The notes beneath the pieces are model-generated. The model saw nothing but the letters and a program-made list of their open reading frames with translations. It was not told the DNA's origin and ran no database searches. This document shows, piece after piece, positions 11,565 to 35,220 of a stretch of 64,000 bases of DNA (positions are counted from its first letter, which is position 1; every line of letters starts with the position of its first letter). The stretch covers positions 64,454,123 through 64,518,122 of the forward strand of contig OZ022503.1 of NCBI GenBank assembly GCA_963989385.1, read 5' to 3'. The position numbers and the translations under genes were made by a program. The DNA is from Ctena decussata. Taxonomy: Eukaryota > Mollusca > Bivalvia > Lucinida > Lucinidae.

Positions 11565-11800
11565 GAGCCACCACACGAGAAAACCAACAATGTGGTTGTG
11601 CGCCCAGCGCAGACTCAGATCAGCCTGGGCATCCGCCCAGTCTGATCAGAGTCTTCGCTGTCCGCATGGGGGTAGCTTAGACTCTAAGCTATCCTTTAAG
11701 CGCTTAGCGAAGAGTCTGAACAGACTGGGCAGAAGCCCAGGCTGATCTGAGTCTGCGCTGGGCGCACAACCACATTGTTGGTTTTTTCGTGTCGCGGCTC
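11565..11800. repeat. Foldback element, copy 1
   Basis: A long near-perfect inverted repeat that starts GAGCCACCACACGAGAAAAC and ends GTGTCGCGGCTC. The arms carry GTGGTTGTGCGCCCAGCGCAG and CCGCCCAGTCTGATCAGAGTC, and a spacer with TTAAGCGCTTAGCG. No coding capacity. The flanks give no clear target duplication. Confidence 0.85.
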
Positions 11801-14735: not shown

Positions 14736-14971
14736 GAGCCGCGACACGAGAAAACCAACAATGTGGTTATGCGCCCTGCGCAGACTCGGATCGGCCTGGG
14801 CATCCGCCCAGTCTGACCAGAGTCTTCACTAAGCGCTTAAAGGGTAGCTAAGGGTCTAAGCTACCTTCATGCGAACAGGGAAGACTCTGATCAGACAGGG
14901 CGGATGCCCAGGCTGATCTGAGTCTGCGCTAGGCGCACAATCACATTGTTGGTTTTCTCGTGTCGCGGCTC
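14736..14971. repeat. Foldback element, copy 3
   Basis: Starts GAGCCGCGACACGAGAAAAC and ends TCGTGTCGCGGCTC, flanked on both sides by AATT, a plausible 4 bp target duplication. The arms carry the same CGCCCAGTCTGA and AGACTCTGATCAGAC motifs as the other copies. Confidence 0.85.
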
Positions 14972-17291: not shown

Positions 17292-17792
17292 AGTAGAGTA
17301 AAAATAGGGGTTTTACAATATACTATTAATAGTTAAGCCAGTACAAACCAAGACCAGGCTTAATTTCACAATATATCGTACATATGTTTTATGATTAAGC
17401 CAGTAGAGACCAAGACCAGGCCTAATTTCACAATATATCGTTTCACTAACCTTCAAATCTGGATATCCAAATTCGCTAAGGTCACAATCAGACCACATGT
17501 GTTTATAATTAATTCAGTACAAACCCAGACCAGGCCTTATTTCCATAGTATATCGTAATTTCCAAGGTTCGCGAATATGGATATCAAAATTTGAAGCCAA
17601 ATATATTCCATAGTGGTATAATTAATCCAGTACAAACCATGACCAGGTCTTATTGCCATAATATACGGTATCCAGCTTTGAAACGCATAAACGGGAAATT
17701 GATATAACACATAGTTTATGTAGTGGATGAGATATCTGAAATGATTTATCTTAATAGTTTTTGGGGCAAATAAACTTTGATAGTGATTATCA
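17292..17792 (+). repeat. Polinton left terminal inverted repeat
   Basis: Matches the reverse complement of 32549-33056 over its full length, ending at GATAGTGATTATCA. It contains four diverged copies of a unit of about 45 bp that begins with a CCAGTACAAACC-type core and ends ATATATCGT, starting near 17335, 17397, 17511 and 17624. Confidence 0.92.
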
Positions 17793-18166
17793 CATACTCA
17801 GCAGATCGGCGAGTAACTGGGGACTATGAAATAAACGTTTCGTCGAAAGAAGCCTGTGTTAAATCTTACAAAGAATTGCAAAAACTTATAGACTCGGATA
17901 AAAGAAACGTGCTTTTAAACTCAGCAAAGCAAGGTCAAGTCCTTAAACATCTGAAAACAAATTTAGAAAAGGGCGTTTCATTTTTAAAATCTATTGAAGA
18001 AAAAGAAATATCAATTTCATTGAGTCACTGCAATTTTTTGATTTCATTGTATGAACTAAGTCTTAAGCAGCCTACAATTTTACAGTGCTCAGTAGAGTTA
18101 CGATTTGTAAAAAAAAATATGAAAACAATTAAAAAAGTATTTGAGAAACACCCACAAGGGTTTTGA
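17777..18166 (+). CDS. Unidentified Polinton protein, 5' end uncertain
   Basis: An open frame of 129 codons at the inner edge of the left TIR. The first 16 bases lie within the repeat and the frame opens with TTG, not ATG. The only in-frame ATG is near the 3' end, so the true start is unknown. The protein is lysine-rich, with an amphipathic middle (LLNSAKQGQVLKHLKTNLEKG) and a conserved-looking segment CNFLISLYELSLKQP. A possible splice acceptor (ACATACTCAGCAG) lies near 17793-17805, so this may be a 3' exon. I do not recognise the family. Confidence 0.4.
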   Translation: MIVIITYSADRRVTGDYEINVSSKEACVKSYKELQKLIDSDKRNVLLNSAKQGQVLKHLKTNLEKGVSFLKSIEEKEISISLSHCNFLISLYELSLKQPTILQCSVELRFVKKNMKTIKKVFEKHPQGF

Positions 18167-18368
18167 CCTAGCTTTTTTATCAGTGATACTGATATCTATG
18201 TCTATTCAAGCGTATACTCACGCCGTGGGATCACACTTGAATGAACACTTTAACAATTTTTGTCTTAACTGTACCAAAATTATTGTAGTATTGTATTAGA
18301 GAGTCAGTCGTTATGACAGAAATACACAGGAGGTGGATCATTATTAAATACAAATTTATTGAACAAAA

Positions 18369-18966
18369 TTATGTGTCGCTTATCTTTTTTTTGAATATCG
18401 CCAGTGCCTGTGATTTCCCTTCTTCTATTAACTTCTTTTTTTCTTGCTCACTCAGACCAGACTGTTTGGTGTGTGTTTTATCTTGCAACTCATTATATCT
18501 GTCCAGCTCATCAAGAACAATCTTAAATTCTTGTTCTGATATCTGTCCATCATTTATGGCTTTGGAAATCAAATTTTTAACAGAAATACAACTTACTTTC
18601 TCCAAGAGTTTTAATCTCATAGTGCTTTTGTGCCTTTGACATTAATTTACGTCTCACCAATTGCACGCAGGCGCCCATGCATCCGCAGACAATTGCAACA
18701 ATTTCTAAAGGCAGCATCACTGGCACTGCCAGGCCTATCCCAGCCATAACAACACTTGCAGAAATCAATGCAGTATCAACGCCGTCTGTGAGGTTGACTC
18801 CGCGTTTATATTTTTTATATAAAGCCTTTCTAACATCTTTTTCTCTTATTAATTGCTTTTCTATTTCTGATATTTTTTGTAAGCGATAGTTTTGACAGTC
18901 TTTAGACAAATCCGGATAAATTTTCTCATCTCCCAAATCCTGATAAGGAGCCGTTGGCGGTTTCAT
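18369..18966 (-). pseudogene. Polinton conserved small membrane protein, frame-interrupted
   Basis: The N-terminal part (18577-18966) starts at an ATG preceded by AATAAAAA. It has a charged region KDVRKALYKKYKRG followed by two hydrophobic stretches around residues 67-96 (TALISASVVMAGIGLAVPVM, then LEIVAIVCGCMGACV) and a basic KLMSKAQKHYEIK segment. The C-terminal part (18369-18620) continues in a +1-shifted frame with AINDGQISEQEFKIVLDEL, ending lysine-rich. Proteins of this layout, unbroken and about 170-200 residues long, are common in animal Polintons; their function is unknown. The frame change lies between about 18590 and 18605, after the ESKL residues. It could be a small deletion, an assembly indel or, less likely, recoding. 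Confidence 0.65.
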
Positions 18967-19010
18967 TTTTTATTGTTTTATATTTTTTTTCCAAATTATT
19001 AATACGTTTA

Positions 19011-19343
19011 TTAAACTCGTTTAGTAAATTCTATGGTCTGCAACCTCGATGTAATATAGGCTTGATTTACTGCATCATCAGGATTAACAGGACTCGCAAG
19101 ACCAGAAATTCGATGCTGGGTCATATCTAATCTGCCGTTCATGACATTATCAGTATGACGTTGTAACACTTCGTGTAGCAAATATTTCCTTAAATTATTT
19201 AAAGCCTTTGCTGTTACCACGTCACCGTTAAACGCCGCATTTTCATCTGGATCTCGAGGGTAAGCTACATTGATTATGCGTTTACCATCCATATTTAGAG
19301 TTGTTTCTAAAACATCTTCTCTCTGTTTTCCAAAAATGCTCAT
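19011..19343 (-). CDS. Small Polinton protein with tail-fibre-like repeats
   Basis: Predicted 110 residues, with the start ATG preceded by an AT-rich TATATAATAATG. It contains two related segments. Residues 16-44 have LNMDGKRIINVAYPRDPDEN; residues 72-98 have LDMTQHRISGLASPVNPDDA followed by NQAYIT. Each follows the pattern of hydrophobic-(N/D)-M-x3-(R/K)-I then P-x-(D/N)-P-D-x-A. This resembles the short repeat seen near the N-termini of many phage tail fibres and collar proteins. A role as a fibre, spike or attachment component is inference. The gene is intact and sits next to the minor capsid gene, about 18 bp from its end. Confidence 0.6.
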   Translation of the reverse strand: MSIFGKQREDVLETTLNMDGKRIINVAYPRDPDENAAFNGDVVTAKALNNLRKYLLHEVLQRHTDNVMNGRLDMTQHRISGLASPVNPDDAVNQAYITSRLQTIEFTKRV

Positions 19344-19361
19344 TATTATATAAAATGAAAT

Positions 19362-20007
19362 TTAAATTATTTCTAAAACACAACTCATGGGCAAACCATG
19401 ATTGTCTACCGTGTTTTTATTTTCATCTTTAACAACTAGTTTCAATTCAGATAAGGCCCCTGTCTTTAACGGCTTGAGTTCTGGGTGTTCAAAGCGTACA
19501 GTCACAATATCACCAAAGCTTTTATTTTCAATGGGAATGACTGCTAATACATCACTCGGTGAGCCATTAAAGTAATTATATGATGAATTTATTTCCGACA
19601 AATGAACATACAAAGATTTTATAACAGCAAAGTCCAGCGGCTTTTCACCTTGATAAATGTTTTTTGGAAAAAAAACGGCCTTTAATCTGGAGTCCAAGCA
19701 TTGTCTTGAGTCTTTTGCTTATTTTTAACTCAATAGGTGTAGTCAAAGTCACTATTCCGTTGGTTTCATCTACAGACATACTGATTTTATGGCTGCGAAA
19801 TATATCTGCTAACTGCTGAAAACTATAATACCCAGGCTTTATGCGAACAGGAGTCTCGCCTTGTTTTTGAATGACTTCATTATGAACATTATACCAACCC
19901 AAACAGTATGTAAAACTGTTTAATCCCACCCGCTTGAATCCATCTCTGTTGTCAATATACTGTTGCAGGATTACAGGATTGCTCATATCAGAAATTATGA
20001 GATGCAT
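19362..20007 (-). pseudogene. mCP: Polinton minor capsid (penton-like) protein, frame-interrupted
   Basis: The N-terminal frame (19645-20007) starts at an ATG next to a short AT-rich promoter. It encodes a segment typical of this family, with YYSFQQLADIFRS and a strand-rich SVDETNGIVTLTTP. The C-terminal frame (from about 19697 down to 19362) encodes SYNYFNGSPSDVLAVIP, FGDIVTVRFEHPE and NHGLPMSCVLEII, a beta-rich pattern I associate with the Polinton single-jelly-roll vertex protein. The two frames overlap and differ by +1. The change can be placed at an eight-base homopolymer (A on the plus strand, 19668-19675). Total span is about 215 codons, the usual size for the family. As assembled, no full-length product would be made. 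Confidence 0.75.
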
Positions 20008-20045
20008 TTTTTTATTTGATAATATAAAAAATCATTGTTATAAAA
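20008..20045. promoter_or_regulatory. Shared AT-rich promoter between divergent genes
   Basis: 38 bp, almost entirely A/T (with GATAATATAAAAAATC and TTATAAAA), separates the minor capsid start on the minus strand from the 481-residue gene on the plus strand. Both starts are immediately preceded by A-runs of the form TAAAAATG. Confidence 0.5.
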
Positions 20046-21491
20046 ATGGTGCAAATCAAAGCATTTTCATACAACCCCAACGCACAATATCAACCATCTG
20101 GAGTTTACAACACTAAAGATCTGAACATCATTAACCTAACAATAGAAGTCAAACAGGCCTCAGACAGTCCAAGCGGCCTTGATGTGAAATTCCCTGACAT
20201 CTTCGCAAAATACGTGCTGCCCTACGTTGAAAGTGATGCCATCGTCCAAAATTGGCGTTCACACCAAATGCAGTTTTGGCAAAACCAGATAAATTTTGCT
20301 TTGTGGTGCGCAACTACAGGATGTGGTGTTTCTATGCAAGACCACCTGACAGGCACTATTCCACTGTTTGCACGTTCATTGTTTTTGTTTCATGTGTATT
20401 ATCAAACGCGAAGAATATTATTCGAAATGAAAGTGGCATTACCAACAGATGACAGCTGGAATGCGTTTGACAACAGTTATGACAAGAAGGCCTATGAGAG
20501 GATCTGTGACGAGTTTGGAGTCTCAGTTCATACCGACTGGAGGCAAAACCAAGATGACAATAGCGGATTAGGGACTATATACTGGTATGTAACAAACACT
20601 GGGTACCAACCGGTCAAAGGTGTAGGTGAATATGATAATAAATTATATTCATTCTCAAGGAATCATCCTGATAACGTTTATCACATTGACTACATTGCAC
20701 AAAGTTTTCCCAAGGCCTGGACTACATTTATTCTCGACAAATCAGATGGCTTTACAAGACCCGGCGTTGAACGAATAAATGACTCAATAAGGACTTACTG
20801 TTGGGCCATTCTAGGCTCTCAGTCTCAGATTAAATCTGACATACTAGGGATATGCTCAGCTTTTGATGCCCAGAAGGAATTCCTTGCAAACGTTGAAGAT
20901 GGAGTCCAAAGGCCAATAGACTTACCAAGTCAAATTACCCGTTATCAAAATACTTTGAAGTACGCCCGGAGCAAGGTTGACTATGTTTTTGGTTATGGCC
21001 TTTACATGGCTCCAAGCAATATGGAATTGCAAATCGGGACAATAAAAAATTACAACAACGAGATTGTACTCTCTACTCATAATCAAAAGTTATGGTGGAA
21101 CAAAACCGTAAACCTTCCTGCCAATGCCACATCTTACACTGATGTGAGTGGGACCCCAACACACAAAGCAAAAGTTGGTGTAGAACCTGGACCAAAAATC
21201 CCTTTAGCTGCCCAGGGTAAAACCATAATAGGAGCACTTGGAATGCCAATAACGATACCCACCGAGAAACAAGCACAGAAGATATATAAAACAAAAAATG
21301 TCACGACTGACTCACATCAAAAGTCATTGAAAAAACCTGACCTACATCAAATACCAAAACCTGACACCCATCCAGTACTGAGTTCCACACCAAAAACTGT
21401 TGCTGAAGAACATGAAAACCACAAAACAGCACTGATAGTCGGGAGCATCGCCTTGGGCATCGTTGCTCTGCTTATTTACGAGATTTATTAA
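20046..21491 (+). CDS. Conserved Polinton virion-type protein with C-terminal membrane anchor
   Basis: Intact 481-residue frame starting at an ATG in TATAAAAATGG context. The N-terminal 350 residues look like one folded domain, with conserved-looking patches QNWRSHQMQFWQNQINFALW, CATTGCGVS, RICDEFGVS, HTDWRQN, DGFTRPGVERINDSIRTYCW and GYGLYMAPSNMELQIG. Residues 375-450 are proline-, lysine- and histidine-rich and probably disordered. Residues about 459-481 form a single hydrophobic helix (TALIVGSIALGIVALLIYEI), a likely tail anchor. Similar proteins occur in many animal Polintons next to the capsid genes, but I know of no proven function. A virion membrane or attachment role is inference from the anchor and the location. 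It converges with the 74-residue gene, overlapping it by 20 bp. Confidence 0.75.
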   Translation: MVQIKAFSYNPNAQYQPSGVYNTKDLNIINLTIEVKQASDSPSGLDVKFPDIFAKYVLPYVESDAIVQNWRSHQMQFWQNQINFALWCATTGCGVSMQDHLTGTIPLFARSLFLFHVYYQTRRILFEMKVALPTDDSWNAFDNSYDKKAYERICDEFGVSVHTDWRQNQDDNSGLGTIYWYVTNTGYQPVKGVGEYDNKLYSFSRNHPDNVYHIDYIAQSFPKAWTTFILDKSDGFTRPGVERINDSIRTYCWAILGSQSQIKSDILGICSAFDAQKEFLANVEDGVQRPIDLPSQITRYQNTLKYARSKVDYVFGYGLYMAPSNMELQIGTIKNYNNEIVLSTHNQKLWWNKTVNLPANATSYTDVSGTPTHKAKVGVEPGPKIPLAAQGKTIIGALGMPITIPTEKQAQKIYKTKNVTTDSHQKSLKKPDLHQIPKPDTHPVLSSTPKTVAEEHENHKTALIVGSIALGIVALLIYEIY

Positions 21492-21696
21492 TCCATTCTT
21501 TAGCTGCCGCATGTAACAACCCAGCGACAAGCACAACAAGAGCCCACAAATTATTTCCAAACCAATTAACCACTTTTGCAGTGGTAGAAAGAAGCCTAGA
21601 CACAATTGATCCAATTATACCCGGCAACGCAGCAGCCGCTTTTCCAGCAAGATTTGCTAGTAGTCTAGCAAGATTATGAAGTTGTTTTTTACCCAT
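21472..21696 (-). CDS. Small amphipathic membrane-active-type protein
   Basis: 74 residues. A basic start (MGKKQLHNLARLLANLAGKA) leads into alternating small and large hydrophobic residues (AALPGIIGSIVSRLLSTTAK), then a hydrophobic helix (NLWALVVLVAGLLHAAA) and a basic end. Such composition suits a membrane-lytic or membrane-associated virion peptide, but that is inference from composition. Its start overlaps the end of the 376-residue gene upstream on the same strand by 40 bp, suggesting co-transcription. Confidence 0.55.
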   Translation of the reverse strand: MGKKQLHNLARLLANLAGKAAAALPGIIGSIVSRLLSTTAKVVNWFGNNLWALVVLVAGLLHAAAKEWINKSRK

Positions 21697-22787
21697 TCTT
21701 TCGCTCCACCTTGCGATGGTTTGGGTGTTGTACCACCGCCTCCAGAAGTTGGAATTACAGCTTCAACTATAACACCAATAATTATGCCAAGAGCCGTCAA
21801 AATACTAACTATCGTTATACCTTGCTCTTTGAATAATGTTTTCAACCGCTCACGCAATGTCGTATCTTTTTTTAAGACTTTGTCAATTGTTTCTTTTATC
21901 CTGTTTATTTGACCCCGCAACGCTTCTTTGTTTGCACTGGCAGCCTCCAGTCTTGCGGCTCTTTCATCTTCTAAGTTTTTTAAACGAGCCTTTATATCAT
22001 TTTTACTGATTTCATCGTCAGCCTCTTGTAATTTCCTGTTTTCTTTTGCAATGTCTTTATCAAGCTCGGTCAGTTTTGCCAAATTATTTGTAAGCTCACC
22101 GCGGGTGCGTTGCAATGCCTTGTCTAATCCTTGAAGTTCCCGCAGTGTTAGACCCTCTGTTTGTGTGTCAGTGTGTACCCAATCAGTAAGAGATGTTTCC
22201 AGTGACTTAACGGCCGTCTCTGCACCAATTACCGTATTTGTTAAATCTTGCAGTTCAGTGCCACCTGACATCTCTAGATCCATGTCATTTCGTGTGCTTT
22301 CCAAAGCCTGCCGTACTTGCTGAGATAGCTGTGTTTTACTCCTGTAATCTGGTAAATTCAAATACTGCCGCACTGCTAATGTGCCTCCTGAGCCAACAAC
22401 CTTATTATACTCATTTGCCAGAGTACCAAGAGAAAGAAACTCTGCACCACCTTGTTTTGCAGTAATTCTGATTTCTTTGTCACCAACACTCCATAACAGT
22501 GTCTTGCCATCATTTGATATCCTAAACTGGTTGTAATCTATCTTGCTCGGGGCCATTTTGTATCGCTTTCCTATTTCATCATAAAATGTTTTAACAAGTC
22601 GTTTTTTGTGGTCTTCAACTGCAGACTTTCGGAGTTCACCCCTTAAATCATCAATTGCCCCACTTTGATTCAAAATGATTCGCTGATCGGTTTCATCCGG
22701 CACCATCGGTAATCTGTCATCTATGTTATCGACGTCATCATAATCATCGTCAAATGTAGGATTCTCAAAATCGTAACCTTCGGCCAT
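21657..22787 (-). CDS. Coiled-coil Polinton protein with C-terminal membrane segment
   Basis: Intact 376-residue frame. The N-terminus is acidic (FENPTFDDDYDDVDNIDD). Residues 50-135 are a mixed domain with TFYDEIGKRYKMAPSKIDY and LLWSVGDKEIRI. Residues about 170-320 are a long, heptad-rich coiled coil dense in K, E, L and R. A hydrophobic segment follows (ITIVSILTALGIIIGVIVEA, about residues 325-344), then a G/T/P-rich tail. This layout recurs in animal Polintons beside the major capsid gene; function unknown, and a structural or scaffolding role is inference. It shares a 41 bp divergent promoter with the major capsid gene. Confidence 0.7.
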   Translation of the reverse strand: MAEGYDFENPTFDDDYDDVDNIDDRLPMVPDETDQRIILNQSGAIDDLRGELRKSAVEDHKKRLVKTFYDEIGKRYKMAPSKIDYNQFRISNDGKTLLWSVGDKEIRITAKQGGAEFLSLGTLANEYNKVVGSGGTLAVRQYLNLPDYRSKTQLSQQVRQALESTRNDMDLEMSGGTELQDLTNTVIGAETAVKSLETSLTDWVHTDTQTEGLTLRELQGLDKALQRTRGELTNNLAKLTELDKDIAKENRKLQEADDEISKNDIKARLKNLEDERAARLEAASANKEALRGQINRIKETIDKVLKKDTTLRERLKTLFKEQGITIVSILTALGIIIGVIVEAVIPTSGGGGTTPKPSQGGAKEWVKNNFIILLDY

Positions 22788-22828
22788 TATTTATTTATTG
22801 AATAAAAATATATTTTTATCTAATAAAA
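22788..22828. promoter_or_regulatory. Divergent promoter of the capsid gene pair
   Basis: 41 bp without G except at the edges, containing the self-complementary AATAAAAATATATTTTTAT. Both neighbouring ATGs follow within a few bases. The symmetry suits a bidirectional TATA-type core promoter. Confidence 0.5.
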
Positions 22829-24094
22829 ATGTCTGCCTACGGAAGTAAACTGAACCCCTATAGAAAACTACGAGAACCTTTTGGTGCGAAAGGAATTCGG
22901 CAAAGCGTAGTAATCACTAACAACCCCAGCACTATCGACCAAAACCAGCAGTTGCTTGTGAGATTTCCAAATCTAAGTAATAATGATGTCATCGTCCCAA
23001 GAACTGCACGTCTCGCTTTCACTATTGAACTGACCAGCAAAGATCACAATGCGACAATCTTTCAAAATCTTGGTAGAGCCATCGTGAAGAAAACAACCAT
23101 TAAAATAAGCGGTAATGAAGTCATGTCAATAGATGACAGCGACATATTTCACTGTTATGTTGACTTATGGAAATCCCCATCCGAGCGGATAAACATGGCC
23201 TACCAAGGCATCGGCAAATCAAACATGTTAAAACACAGAGTCGGGGCAGGAAACGCAACAGCTGACGCTGAAGACCAGGCCATTGCTGGCGCCTTCAAGA
23301 ACAGGTTTTGCATCCCACTGGACTTTGAACTGCTGGAGACGCATATGCCTTTTTACCAGGCCGGGCTCGGTGATAGGCTAGAGTATGAATTAACATTTAA
23401 TGACTATTACAAAGTAATCAGCTCAACGGATGCCGACAGCAGTTATGCCATCAGCAATATCTGTTTAGAATTCGACATGGTAACCGACTCAGAACTTGCA
23501 CGAACAATCAGACAACAGGTCAGTGGCAGAATGGCGATATTGTATGACCGTATTTTGCGGCACAGAAAAATCACAAAGAAAAAGTCTGATACTCTGTGGA
23601 ATATCAACTTGAATGTCCCAGCAAGAAGCATGAAGGGGATTTTAATGTTGTTTGAAGACCCGGACAGGACAACCACTGAAGATTTTTACAATCCAAAAAT
23701 CACAAAAGTTGAAATGACAATAGAAGGCATACCGAATCAACTGTACAGCCAAGGCATGCGGCAGTACCAACAGTGGGACGAAATCAATAAATACTTTGCG
23801 CTGACATCCAAACGCGACAAAGAAATCGATAAAGTTGCAAAATACTTATACTTCAGCGACACTAACATTGAATAATATCTCACCAAAAGATTCGCTTTAT
23901 GGCTTGACTTGCGTTCCACGGATGACAACACCTTGCACGGCAGCGGCAGAAGGATTGAAAATGCCAGTGAAGGGATAACAATACAAATTGAAAAAGAACA
24001 AGGAGCAGATGAAAATTTAAATATCTACCTTTTTATAATACAAGATGCGCAAATCCATTTTGAAGATGGAAGATTTAGTGAAGTCAAATATTGA
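22829..24094 (+). pseudogene. MCP: Polinton major capsid protein, with an in-frame stop
   Basis: The frame runs 348 codons to a TAA at 23873-23875 and then continues in the same frame to a TGA at 24092-24094, 421 codons in all. The first part has features of the double-jelly-roll Polinton capsid protein: VVITNNPSTIDQNQQLLVRF, RTARLAFTIEL, ISGNEVMSIDDSDIF, FYQAGLGDRLEYELTFNDY and a late EGIPNQLYSQGM. The part beyond the stop carries LRSTDDNTLHGSGRRIE, a typical C-terminal signature of the family, so the stop falls inside the conserved protein. The context after the stop is not a classic readthrough signal. A nonsense mutation or a base error is most likely. The packaging ATPase gene overlaps its 3' end. 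Confidence 0.88.
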
Positions 24095-24719
24095 GTTTCC
24101 AAAATATCCACACTCAGCTGTCATCTCGGGTCAAACGGGATGTGGTAAGAGTTTGTTTGTCCTAGATTTACTTGAAAAAGAATACAGAGGTGTGTTTGAA
24201 AAGATAGTCATACTTTGCCCCACCATTGAGTGGAACAAGGCCTACAAAACCAGGAGCTGGATTGGTGACGTACGTTGTCCAAAAGACAAAAGCATAATTA
24301 TAGTAAATCCTGTGATGTCAGATGGAACAGAAAGACTCCAAGAATTGCTGCGTTATTTTTTTGATAATTTTGCTGGCCGACCCACATTGTACATCATCGA
24401 TGACTGCCCTGCAACAAAAGAACTTACAAAGAAAAAAGACATGCTCTCACAGCTAGCATTTTCCGGCAGACACGCAGAGCAAAGCGTCTGGGTCATTTCT
24501 CAAAGATATATTTCTGTCTTGAAAGACCTTCGAGAGCAGGCAAAATGGGTCTGTATGTTTTACACCAAGGACAGAGATAGTTTTGAACATTGCTTGAGGG
24601 AAAATGATGTTGTTCCTGCGGATGAAAGGCAGAAAATAAAAAAAGAATTATCTGAGGTTAAACACCGTAAATTAATATTAAAAACTGACCAACCAACTGG
24701 GTATTGGTTAATGGATTAG
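24045..24719 (+). CDS. ATP: A32/FtsK-like genome packaging ATPase
   Basis: Intact, 224 codons from the first ATG; a second ATG at 24066 gives 217 and is equally plausible. Walker A is GQTGCGKS (residues 29-36), Walker B is LYIIDD (about 115-120), and a downstream VISQRYIS motif (about 150-157) fits the sensor glutamine. This is the compact FtsK/HerA-superfamily ATPase that pumps DNA into capsids in Polintons and related viruses. The start lies inside the 3' end of the capsid gene in another frame, so the two are probably on one transcript. Confidence 0.92.
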   Translation: MRKSILKMEDLVKSNIEFPKYPHSAVISGQTGCGKSLFVLDLLEKEYRGVFEKIVILCPTIEWNKAYKTRSWIGDVRCPKDKSIIIVNPVMSDGTERLQELLRYFFDNFAGRPTLYIIDDCPATKELTKKKDMLSQLAFSGRHAEQSVWVISQRYISVLKDLREQAKWVCMFYTKDRDSFEHCLRENDVVPADERQKIKKELSEVKHRKLILKTDQPTGYWLMD

Positions 24720-24927
24720 CTAAAAGCAAATATAACAATGCTTAAAGCAAAATATAGCGCAAAAATAGCAATGCTTTAAGCAAAAAGCAATGCTTAAAAC
24801 AAAAATAGCAATACTAAAAATGATACTCGAACTAATAACAATTGCTTCTGCCGCTGTTAATATCTCAGTCGGATGTTTGATTTTTTTCATTTATTTTAAG
24901 TTAAAATATATTTTCCAAAATATAAAA
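24720..24927 (+). repeat. Short tandem AAAGCAA/AATGCTTA repeats and leader
   Basis: Between the ATPase stop and the next likely start, imperfect copies of a unit with AGCAATGCTTAAA and AAAATAGC are repeated (about 24722-24815). The region also contains an upstream in-frame ATG at 24790 with a hydrophobic extension. It is unusually long for a gap in this compact element. Confidence 0.5.
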
Positions 24928-25437
24928 ATGAACGCTGAAGATCTATTAGAAAATATTTCACTAGATACACCAGCTGAACGCCAAGATGTGCCAAAACGAG
25001 AGAGACTTTCAGCCATTATAGCCGGAGGTGGAAGTCGGCAATATTTAGGGCGTGAGTTGCAACTCTCAGACATAGATGAAATGACGCCCCAAGAAGTTGA
25101 TAAGCTTTACTGCAGATATGAAGCGAGGCTTGGTGCAAGTATGACTAAGACGTTGGGCAATTCTTTTATTAATTTATATGTCATGGGGGTGTCAAAGTAT
25201 TTCCATGTGGAAAACCCACCCAAGCTATTAGAAGATCTAGAAGAAGACCCATTTATCAATCATGCTCTGACAAGCGTTTGCTGTGAGCTGTATTATAAGT
25301 ATGGGATGTACCTGGCTCCATTTACGGCAATGCTAACAACTGCAAAGCATATTAATTTTAACAAAAATAAAAATGCCATAGAAAAAAATGAATCAGGAAA
25401 TTCAGGAAGCTCAGAAAACTCAAGAACCCCAGAGTGA
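24928..25437 (+). CDS. Conserved Polinton protein of unknown function
   Basis: Start chosen at 24928 because it follows ATATAAAAATG, the context seen at other starts in the element, and because the conserved-looking protein begins here (MNAEDLLENISLDTPAERQD). An in-frame ATG at 24790 would add 46 residues including a hydrophobic helix. The 169-residue protein contains EMTPQEVDKLYCRYEARLGA, MTKTLGNSFINLYVMGVSKY, LLEDLEEDPFINHALTS and CCELYYKYGMYLAPFTA, a mostly helical, well-conserved block in animal Polintons. The C-terminus is polar and overlaps the next gene. Confidence 0.7.
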   Translation: MNAEDLLENISLDTPAERQDVPKRERLSAIIAGGGSRQYLGRELQLSDIDEMTPQEVDKLYCRYEARLGASMTKTLGNSFINLYVMGVSKYFHVENPPKLLEDLEEDPFINHALTSVCCELYYKYGMYLAPFTAMLTTAKHINFNKNKNAIEKNESGNSGSSENSRTPE

Positions 25438-25802
25438 ACCCCAGAGTGAACCCCAGAAAAGTGAAGGTCCACAAAAACGTGAAGAACCCCTAAAAGAAAA
25501 AAACCAAAAACGTGTCGCGGCTGGTAAAAAAAGGCGCTGAAGCCAGATGGAAACAAAAACAAGCCCAAACCCTGGAAGCTGAACCAATCAAAATAACAAG
25601 AGAGCCACAGCTACCAGAGCGGCAACCAACAGTGACTGTTTATAAGAACTATATTCAGCTCTGTGTGATGATCGGAGCTGTAGGTGTTGGTATTTACATG
25701 ATTTACAGTAAAACTGAAATAAAACAACCTCAATCACAACCTAAATCACAACCTAAAATACCTGAGATACAAACGTCGATAGACCCTTTTGAAATGAGAT
25801 AA
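25388..25802 (+). pseudogene. Small Polinton membrane protein, frame-interrupted
   Basis: An ATG at 25388, inside the end of the previous gene in another frame, opens a Q/E/P/K-rich stretch with QEPQSEPQSEP repeats up to KNQKRVAAGKK. The frame then changes by +1 at a seven-A run (25525-25531) and continues as GAEARWKQKQ, a hydrophobic helix (YIQLCVMIGAVGVGIYMIY) and a QPQSQPKSQPK tail ending in SIDPFEMR. The open frame that begins at 25512 starts with GTG and is not an independent gene. Single-pass membrane protein by inference; function unknown. Confidence 0.6.
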
Positions 25803-25837
25803 TTAAAATTAAAAAAACTATATTTTCACAAAAAAAA

Positions 25838-26071
25838 ATGGCAGCTATTGACGGTAAACAAATTGCAAACATGCTTTATCATGCCGGAGTAGAAACTCTT
25901 CTCACTGTTGGGTACTCAGAACTTGGCAAGAAACTCTTGAGAAGATCTGCACCAAAAGTAGATTTTAATATGGGTGATATTGGAATGCTTTCTATTGATA
26001 TACTGCTGGCGATGGCCACACGCGATATGTTGATTAAGCAGGGTATTATTCCAGCGGATATTATGAAATAA
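25838..26071 (+). CDS. Small conserved Polinton protein
   Basis: 77 residues, with the ATG preceded by a run of nine A. The sequence has a helical, partly hydrophobic character (GKQIANMLYHAGVETLLTVG, IGMLSIDILLAMATRDMLIK) and one basic patch (GKKLLRRSAPK). It may be membrane-associated. It lies 35 bp after the preceding gene and 35 bp before the next, on the same strand. Small proteins of this kind are usual here in Polintons; no function can be assigned. Confidence 0.6.
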   Translation: MAAIDGKQIANMLYHAGVETLLTVGYSELGKKLLRRSAPKVDFNMGDIGMLSIDILLAMATRDMLIKQGIIPADIMK

Positions 26072-26106
26072 TTTCTGTTTTAAACTTTTTTATCACGATA
26101 AACAAA

Positions 26107-26532
26107 ATGGCTAGTGCAGTAGCGATGATGTTAGGAGGTGCCGTGGTCAATGCCTTGGCGTTCACAGGAAGTAATTTTTTATTCTCAAAATTGGGAAAAA
26201 ACAACGATGCTGAGGCGGAAAGAGAAAGGCATGATAAAGCAGTCGAACAATTAGAAGCGGCTCAAGCAGCTTGGAGCAAAAAAAGAACCCAGAGATTGGA
26301 TTTTATCAATGAGGAAATACAAAAAGAACATCATGCTGAGCAGACGTTTGACAATGTTGATCAGGCTATGAAACAATACTATTACATTACTGGCAAAAAA
26401 CTTGACCCACTTCCTCAGGAGCCAAAGTTGAGTGATTATTATGCACCATCCCCAGATCAGCAAAACCGTGAATTGTTGTTTATTGTTGCGGGGATGGCAG
26501 CAACCGGGTTTTTGGCTTATAAGTTGATATAA
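26107..26532 (+). CDS. Conserved Polinton protein with two terminal membrane segments
   Basis: 141 residues. Hydrophobic residues 3-27 (SAVAMMLGGAVVNALAFTG) are followed by a charged coiled-coil-like middle (ERERHDKAVEQLEAAQAAWS). A conserved-looking YYYITGKKLDPLPQEPKLSD segment precedes a C-terminal hydrophobic helix (LLFIVAGMAATGFLAYKLI). The frame is intact and precedes integrase by 40 bp. The layout recurs in Polintons of many invertebrates. A membrane or inner-virion role is inference. Confidence 0.65.
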   Translation: MASAVAMMLGGAVVNALAFTGSNFLFSKLGKNNDAEAERERHDKAVEQLEAAQAAWSKKRTQRLDFINEEIQKEHHAEQTFDNVDQAMKQYYYITGKKLDPLPQEPKLSDYYAPSPDQQNRELLFIVAGMAATGFLAYKLI

Positions 26533-26572
26533 ATTTATTATTTTTTTTAGTCTTAAATTGGAATAAAAAATA

Positions 26573-27475
26573 ATGGAAAAGATTTACTACAGCCCAAAGG
26601 GGTTCTGGAAAGGGCTCCCCGCAGTAGAGAAACTAGCAAAAGAAGCAAAAGTCAGTAAAAAGCAGGCGCTTGAATTTTTAAAAAAGCAGGCGGTGTGGCA
26701 AATATATTTACCCGCACCAAAGAAAATAATACGGCCCAGGTTTGATGCGTCCACCCCAAATGAAATTCGTCAGGCAGATTTGTTGTTTTTGCCGCATGAT
26801 ACAGTCAACCGAAAGACATACAAATATGCGCTGACAGTCGTTGATATTGAAAGCAGATATAAAGAGGCGGAGCCTCTGACTTCAAAAGACAGCAAAGAAG
26901 TTGCGAAGGCGTTTGAAAATATTTACAAGCGAAAGCTGAACTTTCCCAAGCTTCTACAGGTAGATCCGGGCAGGGAGTTCATGGGCTCTGTGACACAGCT
27001 GATGGCGAAACACAACGTAAGTATCAGACGTGGCAGGAAAGAGATCCACAGAGACCAAGCTTTGGTTGAGAGGTTCAACAGGACACTGGCTGAAAGGCTT
27101 TTTGGTTATCAGTATGCGAAGGAATTGGAAAATCCACACAAACGCAACAGAGAATGGGTAAAAAGATTACCGGAAGTGATCAAAGCCATAAATGCGGAGA
27201 CGAAAAAAACCCCTCCAGTGAAACAGAAACGGACTGTAGGGAACCCTATTTGTCCTGATGCCACTGTAAGATATTTATATCAACCTGGAGAACAAGAAGG
27301 GGGCGTACGCCGTGCCACGGACCCAATATGGAGTGTCAGTATTCATAAGACAAGTCATCACATTGTTCTGCAGGGCATCAGGGTTTATTATTTAATGCCG
27401 CCAGCTCCGCAGAGAGGTTTCGTAACAGAAGAACTGCTTATTGTTCCTGCTGATACCCAAACGCGTATGTTGTGA
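26573..27475 (+). CDS. INT: Polinton integrase (retroviral-type DDE)
   Basis: Intact 300-residue frame. An N-terminal helical region (residues 15-40, VEKLAKEAKVSKKQALEFLK) is followed by the rve catalytic core: D69 in RQADLLFL, D131 in LQVDPGREF, and E166 in QALVERFNRTL, giving the D,D-35-E spacing. A C-terminal chromo/SH3-like region follows, with WSVSIHKTSHHIVLQGIRVY (about residues 252-275). It would insert the linear element DNA and create the 6 bp duplications seen at the ends. Its 3' end overlaps the 3' end of the convergent PolB gene by about 38 bp. Confidence 0.93.
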   Translation: MEKIYYSPKGFWKGLPAVEKLAKEAKVSKKQALEFLKKQAVWQIYLPAPKKIIRPRFDASTPNEIRQADLLFLPHDTVNRKTYKYALTVVDIESRYKEAEPLTSKDSKEVAKAFENIYKRKLNFPKLLQVDPGREFMGSVTQLMAKHNVSIRRGRKEIHRDQALVERFNRTLAERLFGYQYAKELENPHKRNREWVKRLPEVIKAINAETKKTPPVKQKRTVGNPICPDATVRYLYQPGEQEGGVRRATDPIWSVSIHKTSHHIVLQGIRVYYLMPPAPQRGFVTEELLIVPADTQTRML

Positions 27476-30400
27476 TGCCGTCTGGGGCTATCCAGCGTTT
27501 CGTGTCTAGCGGTGAGAGTGTTGTTTTGTTAATTGTAAGGCCGTAGATCTGGTGCTTTTTGCTTCTCAGCATATTCATTTCGTGGCTGTATGTTTTCCGG
27601 TTGAATAGTTTATCTTTGTAGTTTGCAAAGTTGATTTGTTTATTGATGACATATTTCTTGACACCTTTTGTTTTTTTTTATCAGCTGCTCATCAGCCAGC
27701 AGAATGGAGTACATCTTGGGACGCAGCCCGATATACTCAGCTATGGGGGTACTTTGACATTCGTCCTTAAACTTGCCAATTTTTTTCTTGTTTTGCTCAC
27801 TATAGAGCGGGTGATCCTTGGGGTAATCTGAGAAGTCATACTGGGTCCTCATGGTTGCCATATCAGCATATACATCTGGCGTTTTTAGGTCGACCAGCAG
27901 GCTGTCTGTGTCGGTGTACAGCAAAGTACAGTTTCTGCCGTACTTCTGTTTCAGTGTATTGTAATACCAGTCATACATCAGATGCTTGGATAAGTCCAAG
28001 ACACACATGCCAACATATACTGGTTTGTTTAGTTTCAAGCGAGTCTTGTGTGTATGCAGGGCTGATAATTCATCAGAAAATATGACAGCCCGGTTGTAAT
28101 TGGGTTAAGCGATTATTTTTCTTATCTGCTCTTTTTCTTTATCACCGCCATTTGTGCGGACAATTTTTATATCAACTCGCTTCCGGAGGTTTTCGCAAGT
28201 TTTACCAAATACCGAATTGTTCATGAGTTTGTAGAAGTCTTTCTCAAAGGGCGATTTGGCTTTTTTTCTGAATTCTGTGTTCATGCGAATATATGGTTCC
28301 ATCCACGGCGCCTCGTTGAATTCTAATATTCTGTGGATTTTCTTGAGTTTCATTCCGAGGGACAGGTATAGCTGCAGATTTCTGTAATGCAAAACATATT
28401 TATTTTTGTCTCTGAGATTTGGGACCAGCTTCTCGGTGTTGAGCATACTGTTATTTTCAAGAAGGTATGACTGGTAATCAGACAACCATTCTTTTTTTAC
28501 TTTTAATCGCTCCGGGGCAAGTGGGTAGTCATTATGCAAGTCATGGAGCTCGGCTGGATACTCTAGGTCTACTTCTAAGATGCAGCCCTTGCCTGGTTCA
28601 TCCGGCGGTTTATCAACCCATTTAAAACCAGAATAAGGTAGGGGCTGACTCATAGCCCAGCCATAGAGATTATTTGCATCGTAATACATGATGTGGTTGT
28701 GCTGTTCGTTAGGATTATAGCCAGGCACGCCAGGGTTATTAGCCTTAGCGTGTCTTTTTGAGGTCATGCTGACACCGCCACGCATCCCTTTTTCTATGAA
28801 TAGATGCTGATCGTAGTCAGTCAGGAGCTCCAGTTCAGTACCGGTGTATTTGAGTAAAGCGTCCCAGGATAAGCCGGGGGCTGTATAATAATGCAGCGGA
28901 TCCAGTTTGTATGCATTTATACAAGTTCTACGGAATTTTTGGAATACGTCTGCCAGCAGAGTCACATCTGTTTTTAGATAGAGATCATGGTAATCTCCCA
29001 GCGTCTCGCAGCTGAAAGTTTCCCATACTTTCTGGGCATGTTGGTAATCTTTCTCGGATATACCCTCATCTGTTAGGCTGCTGTGGAATTTCTCAATAGG
29101 CGGCAGCTGAGTCTCCAGGAACCGGTCAAATGAATCTATATATTCGTATGGGTAAACGCCCTTTTGTAATAATATATCAATGTCTGTTGACTGGTGGTTT
29201 CTGGTTGGGCCGGGAATATCATAACCTTCATCCATTTCTTTTAAGGTGAACTCGATGCCACAGCCTTCTAACACATGGCCAACACTTGATGAGCAACCTT
29301 TAAGAATACCGGCAATGTCGGACACGTTATTCTTGTAAATCATAAGTCCATCAAAAACAAGAGAAGCAACCTCCATGCCTTTTCCATTTAAGTAATCGAA
29401 AGCAGCCATCAACGCTTTGTTTTCCAACCGGCACAGTATGTGGTTAATCGTGGATCCTTCCAGATTGTAATTTGTATGTTTTGTTTTCTCTGCATGTTCA
29501 TACATCTCCGGATTAAGCTGGACAACAGCGTTTATGATACTGCGCATTCCAGTATAATAATCGATGAACCACCGTGGATCATCTGGCTGCAGATTTTCTT
29601 GCTTGCCATTCATTATTGCTAAGAGAATTTTTTTTGCTTCATCCCGGGTGATGCCGCGGTTCTTCATGATATCCTGCAACATGGGATCACGGTGCTTGAT
29701 GTAAGCATCCAGGGCTGCGCAGTTTATCCCGTGTTTGTGACAGTACCAGGAAAGTAGCGTTGGGTGCGCATTTTTCATGTCGATGTCAAACATGCTGTCC
29801 TTGCATATTGTATGACGGATTTTCCGGCTCATATTTTGAATGCCTAGCTTTTCAGCTGTCCAGTATCGACCAAACCCATGTCGCTGCCGGTATGACATTG
29901 GTCGTTCTCCATTCTGGTTTAACATGGAGAGATAATTACGAAGCAAGCTCAGCTGAGTTTCCTTGTCAGTATTTTGTCCATCCTGGAAACTGCTGCCGAG
30001 GTCAAACTGGTTGCTGTGATCTAATATGTAGGCTAGCTTACGCCTGTCGACACACTCCCGCAGAACGATGGGTCGACTATCTTCAGAACTAAAGCTGCCG
30101 TAAAGTCTTTTCTTGATTGGCTGGGGATTAAATGTCTTCTGGGTGATTTTAAAGTCATTTTTGTCAGTTGCATCAACTAACTTTGCCAAAGATGATGCCA
30201 TAAACTGAAAGCTGTCCAGAAATTTAAGTTGACCAACGCTGAAAGAGATGTATTTTTCGGTGTTGTTTGGAATGCACGATAATCTGCCCGAGATTTTATC
30301 AATCTCTTGCATGATTAAATGGCTGTCATATCCTTTGAGATTGTGCAAAACAACAGGGATGGTGTTTACCCACGGTTTTATAGCAAGTTTAAGGTTGCAG

Positions 30401-32004
30401 AGTTTATGAGCAGCAGCTCTAAAGTGGCCTAGGATTCTACAGTGATCACGTACTTTGGGATTTTTTTTCATCGTTGAATTCTTTCTGGCAGATCCAGCAA
30501 TGCGTTGCAGACTGGAAATCCTTCTCATTTTTCTCCGACATGTGTAGGGGCTTCGGCTTTGCAAATCTTGCATTAATTCCGACTACTTCCCGTTTCAGGG
30601 ATTTCAAGAACTGCTCTACAGCGTCTTCACCTCTGTAAATTCTTACACCAGATGATGCACCAGCATATCTAACAACCTGATATCCGTAACCGCATGCTTG
30701 GTGTTTGCTTTTGATTTCAGATTTATCCCCAGCTGCCACTTGATGCGGTTTTATTATGCTTTCAAAATCGGCATATATGACGAAAGGCACCTGCATCTGT
30801 TTATGGTAATTTTTAAACTTTATTTTTTCCCCTGGGGCTGGCATTACAATCTTTGTTGCTCTGCCGTTGATGCCGTAACATTCATCTTTGTGGCTGATTA
30901 GTAGGTCTTCACGGGAAAACCCGTAGAGACAGCGATTGCAGAAGTATGTTTTACCTTTGTATTTGTTCTGGTCGTATAGCAGCCTGGACAGGTATTTTAC
31001 CCAACAATAATGGTAATTGTCTTTTTTGTCATGGAGCAACAGCAGGTTGATCCGTGGCATTTCACTCGGCTGCCCGGAAATATGATATGGGACAACTCAT
31101 AGCCATATACATTGATGGCGAGATTGTTTTGTTTCTCTACTTTGTAAATTTGTGATACTGGTGTAGGGAAGTCAATTCCGTCCATGTTTAAATTGTCTTG
31201 TTTTGGATAGCTGTATGGGTTGTTGAGATTATTTTTAGCTGGAAATAAAGCTGACCTTAAGGCCCATCTAAGGCATTCTTGATCTTGATTTTTCACATTG
31301 ATTATTGCCTTTTTATTAGCCAAGACCTCAGGAAGTGGAAAATATGATGAGCCCTTGAGTGGCTCATATTTTGCGATGTTAAGGTACAATGTATTGCATC
31401 TATCAATCATCCAGCCTGAGCCTTCCTTAGTGAATTTTTCGATTTTCTGCTCAATTGCCGAAACTGCCTCATCGTAAAAGGCGAGAATTTCTTGAGGAGA
31501 CAATGTGGCATATTGATTGCTGTAAAATGTTCCCTGTATATTCTTTTTATCCTTGAAAAAGTCAACAATAAGCCCAAATTGCCATTTCAGACCGGATAGT
31601 TCTTGCAATTCAGCGGTGAGCTTGTTTTTTATAATAGTTTTCTTATCTTGAAACATTTTCATGGGGTCTTTGTATCGTGTAACGGAAATTTCATGCGCTC
31701 TGAGATAGCCACATTTGGTTTTGTCCACAAGCCGAAATGGCGATTCTATAGCTTTAATTTTTTCTTTAAGTTCATTTATAACATTTTTCTGTTTCTCAGC
31801 TATTGCCTTTCTTTGTTTTCTTAATTTCTTCTTTCTACGTCGTTTTTCTCTCACCTTGTCTATGAGAGTTTTTTCTTGGGGTTTTTCTTGAGGCTGCGAC
31901 GCCTGTGGTGCATTGTTCAATGCTTTCAATGCATTGTTTAAGGCATCACCGTCAATAATTCCATTGTCATAAAGCATAAGAAGTTTTTGAACGTGTTCTG
32001 ACAT
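27438..32004 (-). pseudogene. PolB: Protein-primed family B DNA polymerase with inserted second polymerase-like domain; interrupted
   Basis: The gene reads from an ATG at 32004 to a TAA at 27438-27440, about 1,520 codons in five segments. Segment 1 (to about 31070) has a basic coiled region (KVREKRRRKKKLRKQRK) and the usual Polinton N-domain (LYLNIAKYEPLKGSSYFPLP). Segment 2 has Zn-binding CNRC...H..C, exonuclease motif I (YADFES, D at about 30769) and CWIC. Segment 3 completes a treble-clef-like DHC...CN motif and has exo II (HNLKGYD), the insertion (about 29185-30132), exo III (YLKTD), motif A (YYDANNLYGWAMSQPLP) and motif B (KLMNNSVFGKT). Segment 4 has motif C (YTDTDS). Segment 5 is the C-terminus. 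Breaks: one base missing near 31065-31075; +1 shift at the eight-T run 30461-30468; in-frame TAA at 28105-28107; +1 shift at the nine-T run 27671-27679. The pattern suggests decay or homopolymer assembly error. Confidence 0.9.
29185..30132 (-). other. TV-Pol-like (superfamily A-like) polymerase domain inserted in PolB
   Basis: About 316 residues with no break, placed between exo II and exo III, where related Polinton polymerases have a short loop before KGVYPYEY. In order: a basic upstream motif GRYWTAEKLG-IQNMSRKIRH; motif A FDIDMKNAHPTLLSWYC (first Asp codon near 29787); motif B RDEAKKILLAIMNG (29605-29646); a helix with STINHILCRLENKALMAAFD; motif C ASLVFDGLMIYK (Asp near 29352); and MDEGYDIP at the exit. 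Motifs A (acidic plus hydrophobic), B (R-x3-K) and C (FDG in place of HDE) match the arrangement of superfamily A-like TV-Pols described from Sputnik and other mobile elements. The family assignment rests on motif recognition only. Lack of LAGLIDADG or splicing residues argues against an intein. Confidence 0.72.
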
Positions 32005-32024
32005 TTCTTTTTCTAATACTAATC

Positions 32025-32038
32025 AGTTGTCTAATAGG
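32025..32038 (-). promoter_or_regulatory. Promoter-type motif upstream of PolB
   Basis: On the gene strand the motif reads CCTATTAGACAACT, 20 bases before the PolB ATG. An almost identical motif lies at the same distance before the zinc-protein gene. Confidence 0.5.
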
Positions 32039-32088
32039 AAAAATGTCTATGTTTTTACCTAGAAAATCCAAAACAAAAAAAAAATCTA

Positions 32089-32271
32089 TTAAAACAGGCC
32101 AACACCAGCTGGTTCACAATTATCTTGTATTTGTCTGAGTAACTTTTTTTCTGCACGCGCCCTCTTGTTTTTGATATTCTGCTGATTTGATCGACATTTT
32201 TTGCATACGGCTTTACCTTTTGTGAACAATTCTTCGTCTTTCAAAAGTCCGCAAAGTCTGCAGTGTTTCAT
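32089..32271 (-). CDS. Small zinc-ribbon protein
   Basis: 60 residues with two CxxC pairs: CRLC (residues 4-7) and CKKC (23-26), separated by about 15 residues, then a basic KNKRARAEKKLLRQIQ helix. This fits a small zinc-ribbon or treble-clef DNA- or RNA-binding protein. Comparable one-ribbon proteins occur near PolB in other Polintons. It is the rightmost gene and is read leftward, like PolB; the shared upstream motif suggests joint control, probably early in the element's cycle (inference). Confidence 0.65.
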   Translation of the reverse strand: MKHCRLCGLLKDEELFTKGKAVCKKCRSNQQNIKNKRARAEKKLLRQIQDNCEPAGVGLF

Positions 32272-32288
32272 CTTTTAAAATATAAAAT

Positions 32289-32303
32289 AGTTGTCTAAAT
32301 AGG
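32289..32303 (-). promoter_or_regulatory. Promoter-type motif upstream of the zinc-protein gene
   Basis: On the gene strand it reads CCTATTTAGACAACT, 17 bases before the ATG at 32271, and is followed by TATTTTATATTTTA. It differs by one base from the motif at 32025-32038. Confidence 0.5.
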
Positions 32304-32548
32304 CCGTAAGCCTTTTTACTTGTTTCAGCATAGTCAAGATTGACAACTAGTGATTTATATTTTGAAGAAAATCAATGTATGTATCTTCCCTTGGACTGAT
32401 TAGATAAATTGACGGATCATTCGATAAATACCTTTTCAAAATTAATAATGAGATAAAAAGTAACAGGCCCTGTTACCAAAAACGGAAATGATCAATTGTG
32501 CGCGCGCACACAGATAATCAGCTGACTTCATATCTTTAGTGGGTAAAC
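32304..32548. other. Non-coding right subterminal region with palindromes
   Basis: No open frame. It contains TAACAGGCCCTGTTA (32461-32475, palindromic around the centre) and GTGCGCGCGCAC (32498-32509, perfect). It lies between the last gene and the right TIR. Confidence 0.5.
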
Positions 32549-33056
32549 TGATAATCACTATCAAAGTTTATTTGCCCCCAAAAACTTTTAAGATAAATCA
32601 TTTCAGTTATCTAATCCACTACATAAACTATGTGTTATATCAAATAAAATTTTCTGTTTATGCGTTTCAAATCTGGATACCGTATATTATGGAAATAAGA
32701 CCTGGTCATGGTTTGTACTGGATTAATTATACCACTATGGAATATATTTGACTTCAAATTTTGATATCCATATTCGCGAACCTTGGAAATTACGATATAC
32801 TATGGAAATAAGGCCTGGTCTGGGTTTGTACTGAATTAATTATAAACACATGTGGTCTGATTGTGACCTTAGCGAATTTGGATATCCAGATTTGAAGGTT
32901 AGTGAAACGATATATTGTGAAATTAGGCCTGGTCTTGGTCTCTACTGGCTTAATCATAAAACATATGTACGATATATTGTGAAATTAAGCCTGGTCTTGG
33001 TTTGTACTGGCTTAACTATTAATGGTATATTGTAAAACCCCTATTTTTACTCTACT
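32549..33056 (-). repeat. Polinton right terminal inverted repeat
   Basis: Reverse complement of 17292-17792, ending CTATTTTTACTCTACT. It has the same four internal subunits. Differences from the left copy include scattered substitutions and an indel of about 7 bp near 32645. Chance open frames here mirror those in the left repeat. Confidence 0.92.
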
Positions 33057-34720: not shown

Positions 34721-35220
34721 CATAAACTAAACTTTTCGTCTAAAGCAGGTGACAATAAATTCGTAATGATTGTTGTTGCGTAAAATTGGACCTTACGGTA
34801 TGTGCGAGCAGTGAAGACTCAGATCAGACTACGCATTTTGGCAGTCTGATCTGAGTCTCCTCTTTTCGCCTTAACATTCTATGAATCCTGAGAAATCTTA
34901 ATATAAAAAAATGAAAAGCCAAGGTCGAAACGCAGAATGAGGTTAGTATTTACAGTGCGCAATGGTATAAGGTCCATTTTCACGCGAGGCCAATTTTATA
35001 TCCAGACTTAAAGTTTTCTCGAACAAATAACGTTTCAAGAAATAATTTTATTTAATATTACTTGTGATCTCCTTTAACGGTTATTTCTGATGAAGTGCTG
35101 CAGTTGCTAGTTGCTAGGAACTGAAGGCTCTGATAACGTAAAAAGTCTTTTGAGAATTCATCTTTGAGTGCATTGATATGCTTTGGATTTGCTGACATAC
35201 AAGAAATTAAATTTTGGATT

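Follow-up and report, generated by a model that had tools for sequence, protein, structure and literature searches.

Polymerases of the TV-Pol family occur in mobile elements, where they stand alone or are fused to a D5 helicase or to an N-terminal helical domain, and where linkage to nuclease domains was never seen (Iyer, Abhiman and Aravind 2008, PMC2579912). Features of the family include a beta-hairpin bearing a conserved Arg, a conserved Asp in the fingers and a thumb formed by a two-helix coiled coil. CCPol, from SCC (staphylococcal cassette chromosome) mobile elements, has been placed among the TV-Pols; it has a family A catalytic domain and forms a two-protein complex with MP, a partner with a predicted OB fold, and no PolB (PMC7581432, PMC10061031). 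Sputnikviruses and polinton-like viruses (PLVs), which share a viral phylum with the Polintons, have a family A polymerase fused to a superfamily 3 helicase (PolA-S3H), which replaces the protein-primed family B DNA polymerase (pPolB) laid out as TP-vOTU-EXO-PALM in Polintons/Mavericks (PMC11071308). CCPol and PolA-S3H are compared here by their published descriptions. We analyzed a 64,000-nucleotide window of the genome of the bivalve Ctena decussata (assembly GCA_963989385.1, contig OZ022503.1, positions 64,454,123 to 64,518,122), in which a Polinton carries a PolB gene whose exonuclease domain encloses, between the motifs exo II and exo III, a 316-residue block that resembles a TV-Pol.

The block shares with the TV-Pols a hairpin Arg, the Asp residues of motifs A and C, RxxxK fingers and a mobile-element setting, and it differs from them in lying between PolB exonuclease motifs, a position that we treat as context and not as defining. 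The enclosing protein, in turn, is like the Polinton/Maverick pPolB in its exo I–III and palm motifs (recognized by eye) and in the company of an rve integrase, an A32 ATPase, terminal inverted repeats (TIRs) and a 6-bp duplication, and it departs from that enzyme by an excess of roughly 316–330 residues between exo II and exo III. Whereas PolA-S3H replaces pPolB, the block shares an open reading frame (ORF) with it. A fusion of pPolB in an Oxyrrhis PLV likewise brings in an unusual extra replication domain, but there a superfamily 1 (SF1) helicase lies N-terminal to pPolB and here a second polymerase is nested within it (PMC12721341). In the literature consulted, mostly titles and abstract openings and with subscription journals largely outside, we found no description of a family A polymerase inside a pPolB. 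As read from the sequence, this is a real, well-supported new domain arrangement in one element.

A 316-residue insertion in the PolB exonuclease domain

The ORF at 28105–30582 of the minus strand runs for 825 residues from stop to stop and holds exo II, the 316-residue block, exo III and part of the PolB palm without a break. Along it stand HNLKGYD (residue 80), KITQKT (145–150), the block (151–466) with GRYW (238), IQNMSRKIRH (248), FDIDMKNAHPTLLSWYC (265), RDEAKKILLAIMNG (313), EGSTINHILCRLENKAL (375) and ASLVFDGLMIYK (406), and then KGVYPYEY (474) and YLKTD (535). With the exception of EGSTINHILCRLENKAL, which was added in this analysis, these nine motifs had been quoted in an initial annotation of the window together with the coordinates of the block, and both proved correct: the ORF is single and uninterrupted, the motifs follow in the order claimed, and the block amounts to 316 codons. 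Over the 948 nt of the block, stops are absent from the coding frame and number 18 and 21 in the remaining minus frames and 13, 15 and 13 in the plus frames.

Two PolB family profiles match on both sides of the block and not within it, as would be expected if some 316 residues had been added between exo II and exo III, which is what the initial annotation had proposed. When the flanks were scanned separately, PF03175 (DNA_pol_B_2) matched with its positions 12–73 before the block and 81–403 after it, so that a gap of 7 profile positions faces 336 protein residues (136–471), the mark of an insertion and not of a standard part. PHROG_1907 is split at the same place, with positions 68–156 before the block (E=0.0069) and 161–437 after it (E=1.2e-7). 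Judged from these two profiles, the view that the block is an insertion rather than a standard part of PolB is supported.

The whole PolB spans 27640–32022 as four ORF pieces separated by three breaks, of which two are frame changes upstream of the block and one is an in-frame stop (28105–28107) downstream. Exo I, II and III and the PolB motifs A, B and C can be recognized by eye across the pieces, and Cys/His-bearing stretches within 30446–32022 may correspond to the vOTU region of Polinton PolB, which they resemble. It had also been remarked that the block is free of frameshifts while the rest of PolB has four breaks. The block is indeed unbroken, but this carries little weight as evidence: with fewer than one break per kb in PolB and terminal repeats that differ by about 1.5%, an unbroken 948-bp block is by itself no sign of selection. 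From the reading frame, the block is very probably translated as part of the PolB chain.

Comparison of the block with TV-Pols

On its own, the block gave nothing significant in Pfam (best E 0.11), PHROGs (best E 0.038), NCBIfam (no match) or PDB sequences. A tblastn search against 72,556 plasmid records returned four matching records, among them two Polaromonas plasmid proteins (E=2e-4 and 3e-3) whose alignments cover the stretch from GRYW through the fingers (block residues 88–183); the others had E=3 and 5. One of the two proteins, P0001, matches gp030 of the Microcystis phage Ma-LMM01 (E=6e-5), the gene of which adjoins two transposase genes. The TV-Pol family is recorded in Ma-LMM01 (PMC2579912), and gp030 is presumably the protein meant there. 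The Polaromonas plasmids carry a recombinase gene, like many of the TV-Pol elements described in the same paper. One Polaromonas plasmid TV-Pol relative (L004:3781-5286) is labeled 'Clp protease N-terminal domain-containing protein'; this label is probably wrong, as the Pfam Clp_N match falls just under its cut-off.

Scans with an alignment containing the block (A1) confirmed 12 loci among 46 viral stretches and 4 among 45 genome stretches. Five of these 16 loci (L008 and L020–L023), each confirmed with P0001, entered A2, an alignment of eight TV-Pols without the block, which also takes in relatives on IMG/VR and GTDB contigs. The remaining 11 viral loci, 92–97% identical to L008, were left out, and L012 was used only in a further alignment, A3. 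Compared with A2 by hhalign, the block matched over residues 75–282 with a probability of 96.4 and E=1.4e-9 (for a single comparison). The score of 74.0 stands against a maximum of 24.6 in 100 shuffles, 16.5 for the reversed block, 15.8 for the PolB part that follows the block and 14.1 for the part that precedes it. A hidden Markov model (HMM) of the eight TV-Pols ranked this ORF first among the 659 six-frame ORFs of at least 40 residues in the window (E=2.9e-18; next E=3.4), and it was still found with the two Polaromonas proteins removed (E=1.1e-13) or with L022 and L023 as the only members (E=5.9e-8). Identity between the block and the eight relatives is 17–25%. The initial annotation had seen a superfamily A-like module inside PolB, and the profile comparisons support this in the form of a TV-Pol; on these sequence comparisons we assign the block with high confidence to the TV-Pol-type, superfamily A-like polymerases. 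As a separate observation, L022 and L023 are stand-alone TV-Pol relatives on long Thioalkalivibrio and Methylonatrum contigs, possibly within undescribed integrated elements.

Patterns run on the viral contigs hit four stretches with the block alone and three with a PolB piece, none of them confirmed, and none at all with a sub-block pattern or a PolB motif A pattern; a DNA pattern for motif A hit three loci that were judged from their translations to be chance. Alignment A3 with the block placed first also reached 46 stretches of the viral contigs, and again none was confirmed. Against phages, tblastn of the block gave nothing at E 1 and three matches at E 2–4, and tblastn of the PolB part after the block gave three records at E 0.7. 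Among PDB sequences, no polymerase came up with any of five queries (the block, Ma-LMM01 gp030, A2, A3 and the PolB part after the block), and a Pfam scan of the eight A2 members had no DNA_pol_A match at E 10, in a scan whose filters discard most weak matches.

Active-site residues

In the alignment of the block with its eight relatives, the residues R89, D118, K167, E237 and D261 are identical in all nine rows. The Arg of the RxxxK motif (R163) is present in the block and in none of the eight relatives at the aligned column, while the Lys is present in all eight. A stronger sign of selection than the open frame is that the block keeps the expected catalytic residues at an identity of 17–25%, which requires that its activity was selected for until fairly recently, either here or in a donor lineage. 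At the position that we take to be Q849 of Pol I the block has a Cys. The positions counted as Pol I E710 and F762 are occupied by His in eight of nine rows and by Leu in all nine, respectively (H123 and L171 in the block). In Pol I these two residues discriminate against ribonucleotides, and CCPol, in contrast to the block, keeps them (PMC7581432).

Link to superfamily A polymerases

A set of eight phage family A DNA polymerases, T7 gp5 among them and one incomplete at its end, matched the TV-Pol profile without the block with a probability of 73.9, E=2.8e-5 and a score of 50.2; the maximum in 60 column shuffles was 19.5. In the joint alignment, TGR, GIDASGLELR, TRDNAK..YG, ALNTLLQ and VHDE of T7 gp5 face FGR, DIDMKNAHP, TRDEAK..NG, TINHILC and VFDG of the block. 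T7 RNA polymerase gave nothing against two TV-Pol profiles. The superfamily A affinity proposed for the module is supported through the TV-Pols (E=2.8e-5) and not through the block alone.

The host element

The element at 17292–33056 (15.8 kb) was taken as a Polinton, as had been done initially, and this is supported by its TIRs, 6-bp duplication, PolB, rve integrase and A32 ATPase. The terminal repeats of 475–481 nt have AG...CT ends, differ by about 1.5% and are bordered by the 6-bp target duplication ATAAGC; TIRs with AG ends and a 6-bp target duplication are a feature of Polintons. Six mismatches in 409 nt of the repeats indicate a young element, the PolB of which is nonetheless broken in several places. 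Given the identity of the element, its PolB is presumably of the protein-primed kind. No Ulp1-like protease was recognized among the element ORFs scanned. The coordinates of the features are collected in Table 1.

Table 1. Positions in the window of the nested domain, its motifs, the surrounding PolB and the rest of the element.
Position	Strand	Feature	Basis or remark
29185..30132	-	TV-Pol-type (superfamily A-like) polymerase domain inserted in PolB, 316 aa	tblastn, hhalign and HMM comparisons
29227..29886	-	TV-Pol core for comparison (block residues 83-302: hairpin, palm, fingers)	hhalign 75-282; end set from alignment A3
29887..30132	-	First part of block (residues 1-82), probably thumb helices or a linker	Outside hhalign match except 75-82; thumb assignment conjectural
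29860..29871	-	GRYW, beta-hairpin Arg R89	Identical in 9/9 aligned rows; predicted hairpin
29740..29790	-	Motif A FDIDMKNAHPTLLSWYC, catalytic Asp D118	Aligned with T7 gp5 GIDASGLELR
29605..29646	-	Fingers / motif B RDEAKKILLAIMNG, RxxxK (R163, K167)	Aligned with T7 gp5 TRDNAKTFIYGFLYG
29410..29460	-	EGSTINHILCRLENKAL, conserved Glu E237	E in 9/9 rows; aligned with T7 gp5 ALNTLLQSAGA; half not significant alone
29332..29367	-	Motif C ASLVFDGLMIYK, catalytic Asp D261	Aligned with T7 gp5 AWVHDEI; half not significant alone
28105..30582	-	Unbroken ORF with PolB exo II, TV-Pol block, exo III, palm motif A and B regions	PF03175 E=1e-14
30133..30582	-	PolB exonuclease part before block (exo II HNLKGYD)	PF03175 positions 12-73, E=0.0083, 15.5 bits, cut-off 25.8
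28105..29184	-	PolB after block: KGVYPYEY, exo III YLKTD, palm	PF03175 positions 81-403, E=3.7e-13
27640..28104	-	PolB continuation with motif C (YTDTDS) behind in-frame stop	Recognized by eye; not matched separately in Pfam
30446..31096	-	PolB piece with exo I (YADFESII), other frame	Recognized by eye; Pfam gives no PolB family
30997..32022	-	N-terminal piece of PolB, possible terminal protein or vOTU region	Sequence by eye; no vOTU match in Pfam
17292..17766		Left terminal inverted repeat, begins AGTAGAG	6 mismatches in outer 409 nt; ATAAGC duplication outside
32576..33056		Right terminal inverted repeat	Pairs with left repeat
26567..27475	+	Retrovirus-type integrase (rve)	PF00665 E=2e-8
24039..24719	+	A32-type packaging ATPase	PF04665 E=6.3e-8
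22802..23875	+	Probable capsid protein	Weak PF16903 match, E=0.0071, under its cut-off

Outside the element, nested inverted repeats at 11565–14975 (81–238 nt, 80–93% complementary) may be foldback or MITE-like (miniature inverted-repeat transposable element), with weaker relatives at 34801–34874 (70–75%). The ORFs at 42409–42540 and 48233–48364 are of equal length and have identical HMM scan scores, which suggests a duplication about 5.8 kb apart; between them the GC skew is strongly negative, reaching -0.30 at 44001–46000.

Discussion

The best overall explanation, to which we give a probability of roughly 0.58, is that a TV-Pol was captured by a Polinton pPolB, is translated in the same chain and works at the same fork. 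A TV-Pol-type domain would have entered, in frame and between exo II and exo III, the protein-primed PolB of a Polinton lineage, and it would fold as a second palm on the exonuclease domain. The pPolB would start at the ends of the element with a terminal protein and carry out strand-displacing synthesis, while the TV-Pol palm, at the same fork, could lay down short DNA primers or perform fill-in on the displaced single strand, or serve as a backup for PolB. The mechanism draws its support by analogy from CCPol, a proven DNA polymerase that makes primers together with its single-stranded DNA-binding partner MP (PMC7581432, PMC10061031). From its sequence, we lean towards the block being active in intact relatives, if there are any; that priming on the displaced strand is its main role is a tentative proposal, drawn from the same analogy, for which we see clearly less than an even chance. 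The bypass or repair activity that the initial annotation named beside priming would likewise be conjectural.

Several observations weigh against this explanation. The nested arrangement was seen as one copy only in the window, and the PolB of that sole copy is interrupted, with two or more frame changes and one stop. CCPol alone only extends primers (PMC7581432), and in the element ORFs scanned neither a partner of this sort, nor a helicase or single-stranded DNA-binding protein (SSB), was recognized, save for weak P-loop matches in the ATPase ORF. The members of A2 were partly collected through the block itself, P0001 and P0002 by its tblastn search and L008 and L020–L023 by the block-containing alignment; the figure free of such selection is the tblastn E=2e-4. 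An HMM of two near-identical phage TV-Pols fails to find the block. The signal, moreover, sits in the first part of the block, with E=1.8e-17 for the profile that ends at the fingers; the part after the fingers ranks first without being significant (E=1.1). The hairpin, motif A and fingers are thus firmly TV-Pol-like, while for motif C and the Glu helix the assignment follows from their collinear order. Taken by itself, the block drew no match from the phage family A polymerases (hhalign probability 0.1; nothing in an HMM scan), so that the link to superfamily A runs via the TV-Pols, and the rise of the score to 58.7 with the real block is not evidence, as ten shuffled blocks gave 40.5–55.1.

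A single copy in a broken PolB is also what would be seen if the block were a mere passenger: a TV-Pol gene that came from some other mobile element, landed in frame and is tolerated or harmful, with no role in Polinton replication. The codon usage of the block correlates weakly with that of the PolB that follows it (0.20), as a foreign origin might predict; however, codon usage turns out to be uninformative here, the block giving 0.17–0.39 with five other element ORFs and out-of-frame readings giving 0.14 and 0.19. The block joins PolB with the frame kept, and its conserved catalytic residues need selection until fairly recently, here or in a donor, and we regard a passenger as rather unlikely. 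The block could also be transitional, a frozen step in a lineage shifting from pPolB to a family A polymerase. Replacement of pPolB by PolA-S3H has been inferred in some virophage lineages, with replication modules exchanged with PLVs (PMC11071308), but the exo I–III and A, B and C motifs of this PolB are still recognizable by eye and no S3H helicase was recognized in the scanned ORFs, which leaves this explanation improbable.

The remaining alternatives concern what the block is. We find it very improbable that it is an ORF carried by an intron and removed from the PolB transcript by splicing. Five GT within 140 nt at the 5' boundary and five YAG within 160 nt at the 3' boundary would allow this but are about as frequent as in any DNA; the same 140 nt contain no GTRAG donor, and the open frame of the block continues into PolB at both ends. 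An invasion of pPolB by an intein or homing endonuclease is less credible still. HQS at ORF residues 463–465, just ahead of the 3' boundary, might be read in its favor, HQ followed by Ser being a rare intein ending; against it, residues 440–480 contain no HN[CST], residues 141–160 at the 5' boundary contain no Cys or Ser, and the Pfam matches of the block include no intein or homing endonuclease family, the match being to a polymerase profile instead. Such invasions have been suggested for the homing endonuclease domains found at varied positions of pPolB in Polintons (PMC11071308). Just as implausible is an elaboration of the PolB exonuclease domain that resembles family A motifs by chance, as one might suppose from the lack of significant matches of the block alone in Pfam, PHROGs, NCBIfam and PDB sequences and from the E=1.1 of the motif C half, since the tblastn match (E=2e-4), the TV-Pol profile match (E=2.9e-18) and the collinear alignment with its shuffle controls all speak against coincidence.

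The capture of a TV-Pol by a Polinton pPolB could extend further than this element. In its widest form, which we consider doubtful, one replicase chain would have two unrelated active sites, a family B palm for the ends and a nested, active TV-Pol primase-polymerase for the displaced strand, and this arrangement would be lineage-wide in a Polinton group and would open a way for family A enzymes to supplant pPolB. Family A and B replicases of the eukaryotic preplasmiviricots have been presented as alternatives of which one takes the place of the other (PMC11071308); in this element a single ORF holds both. If the explanation is true, the locus would offer a tangible route for the exchange of one polymerase for another, and a replicase that perhaps carries its own primase could be put to the test.

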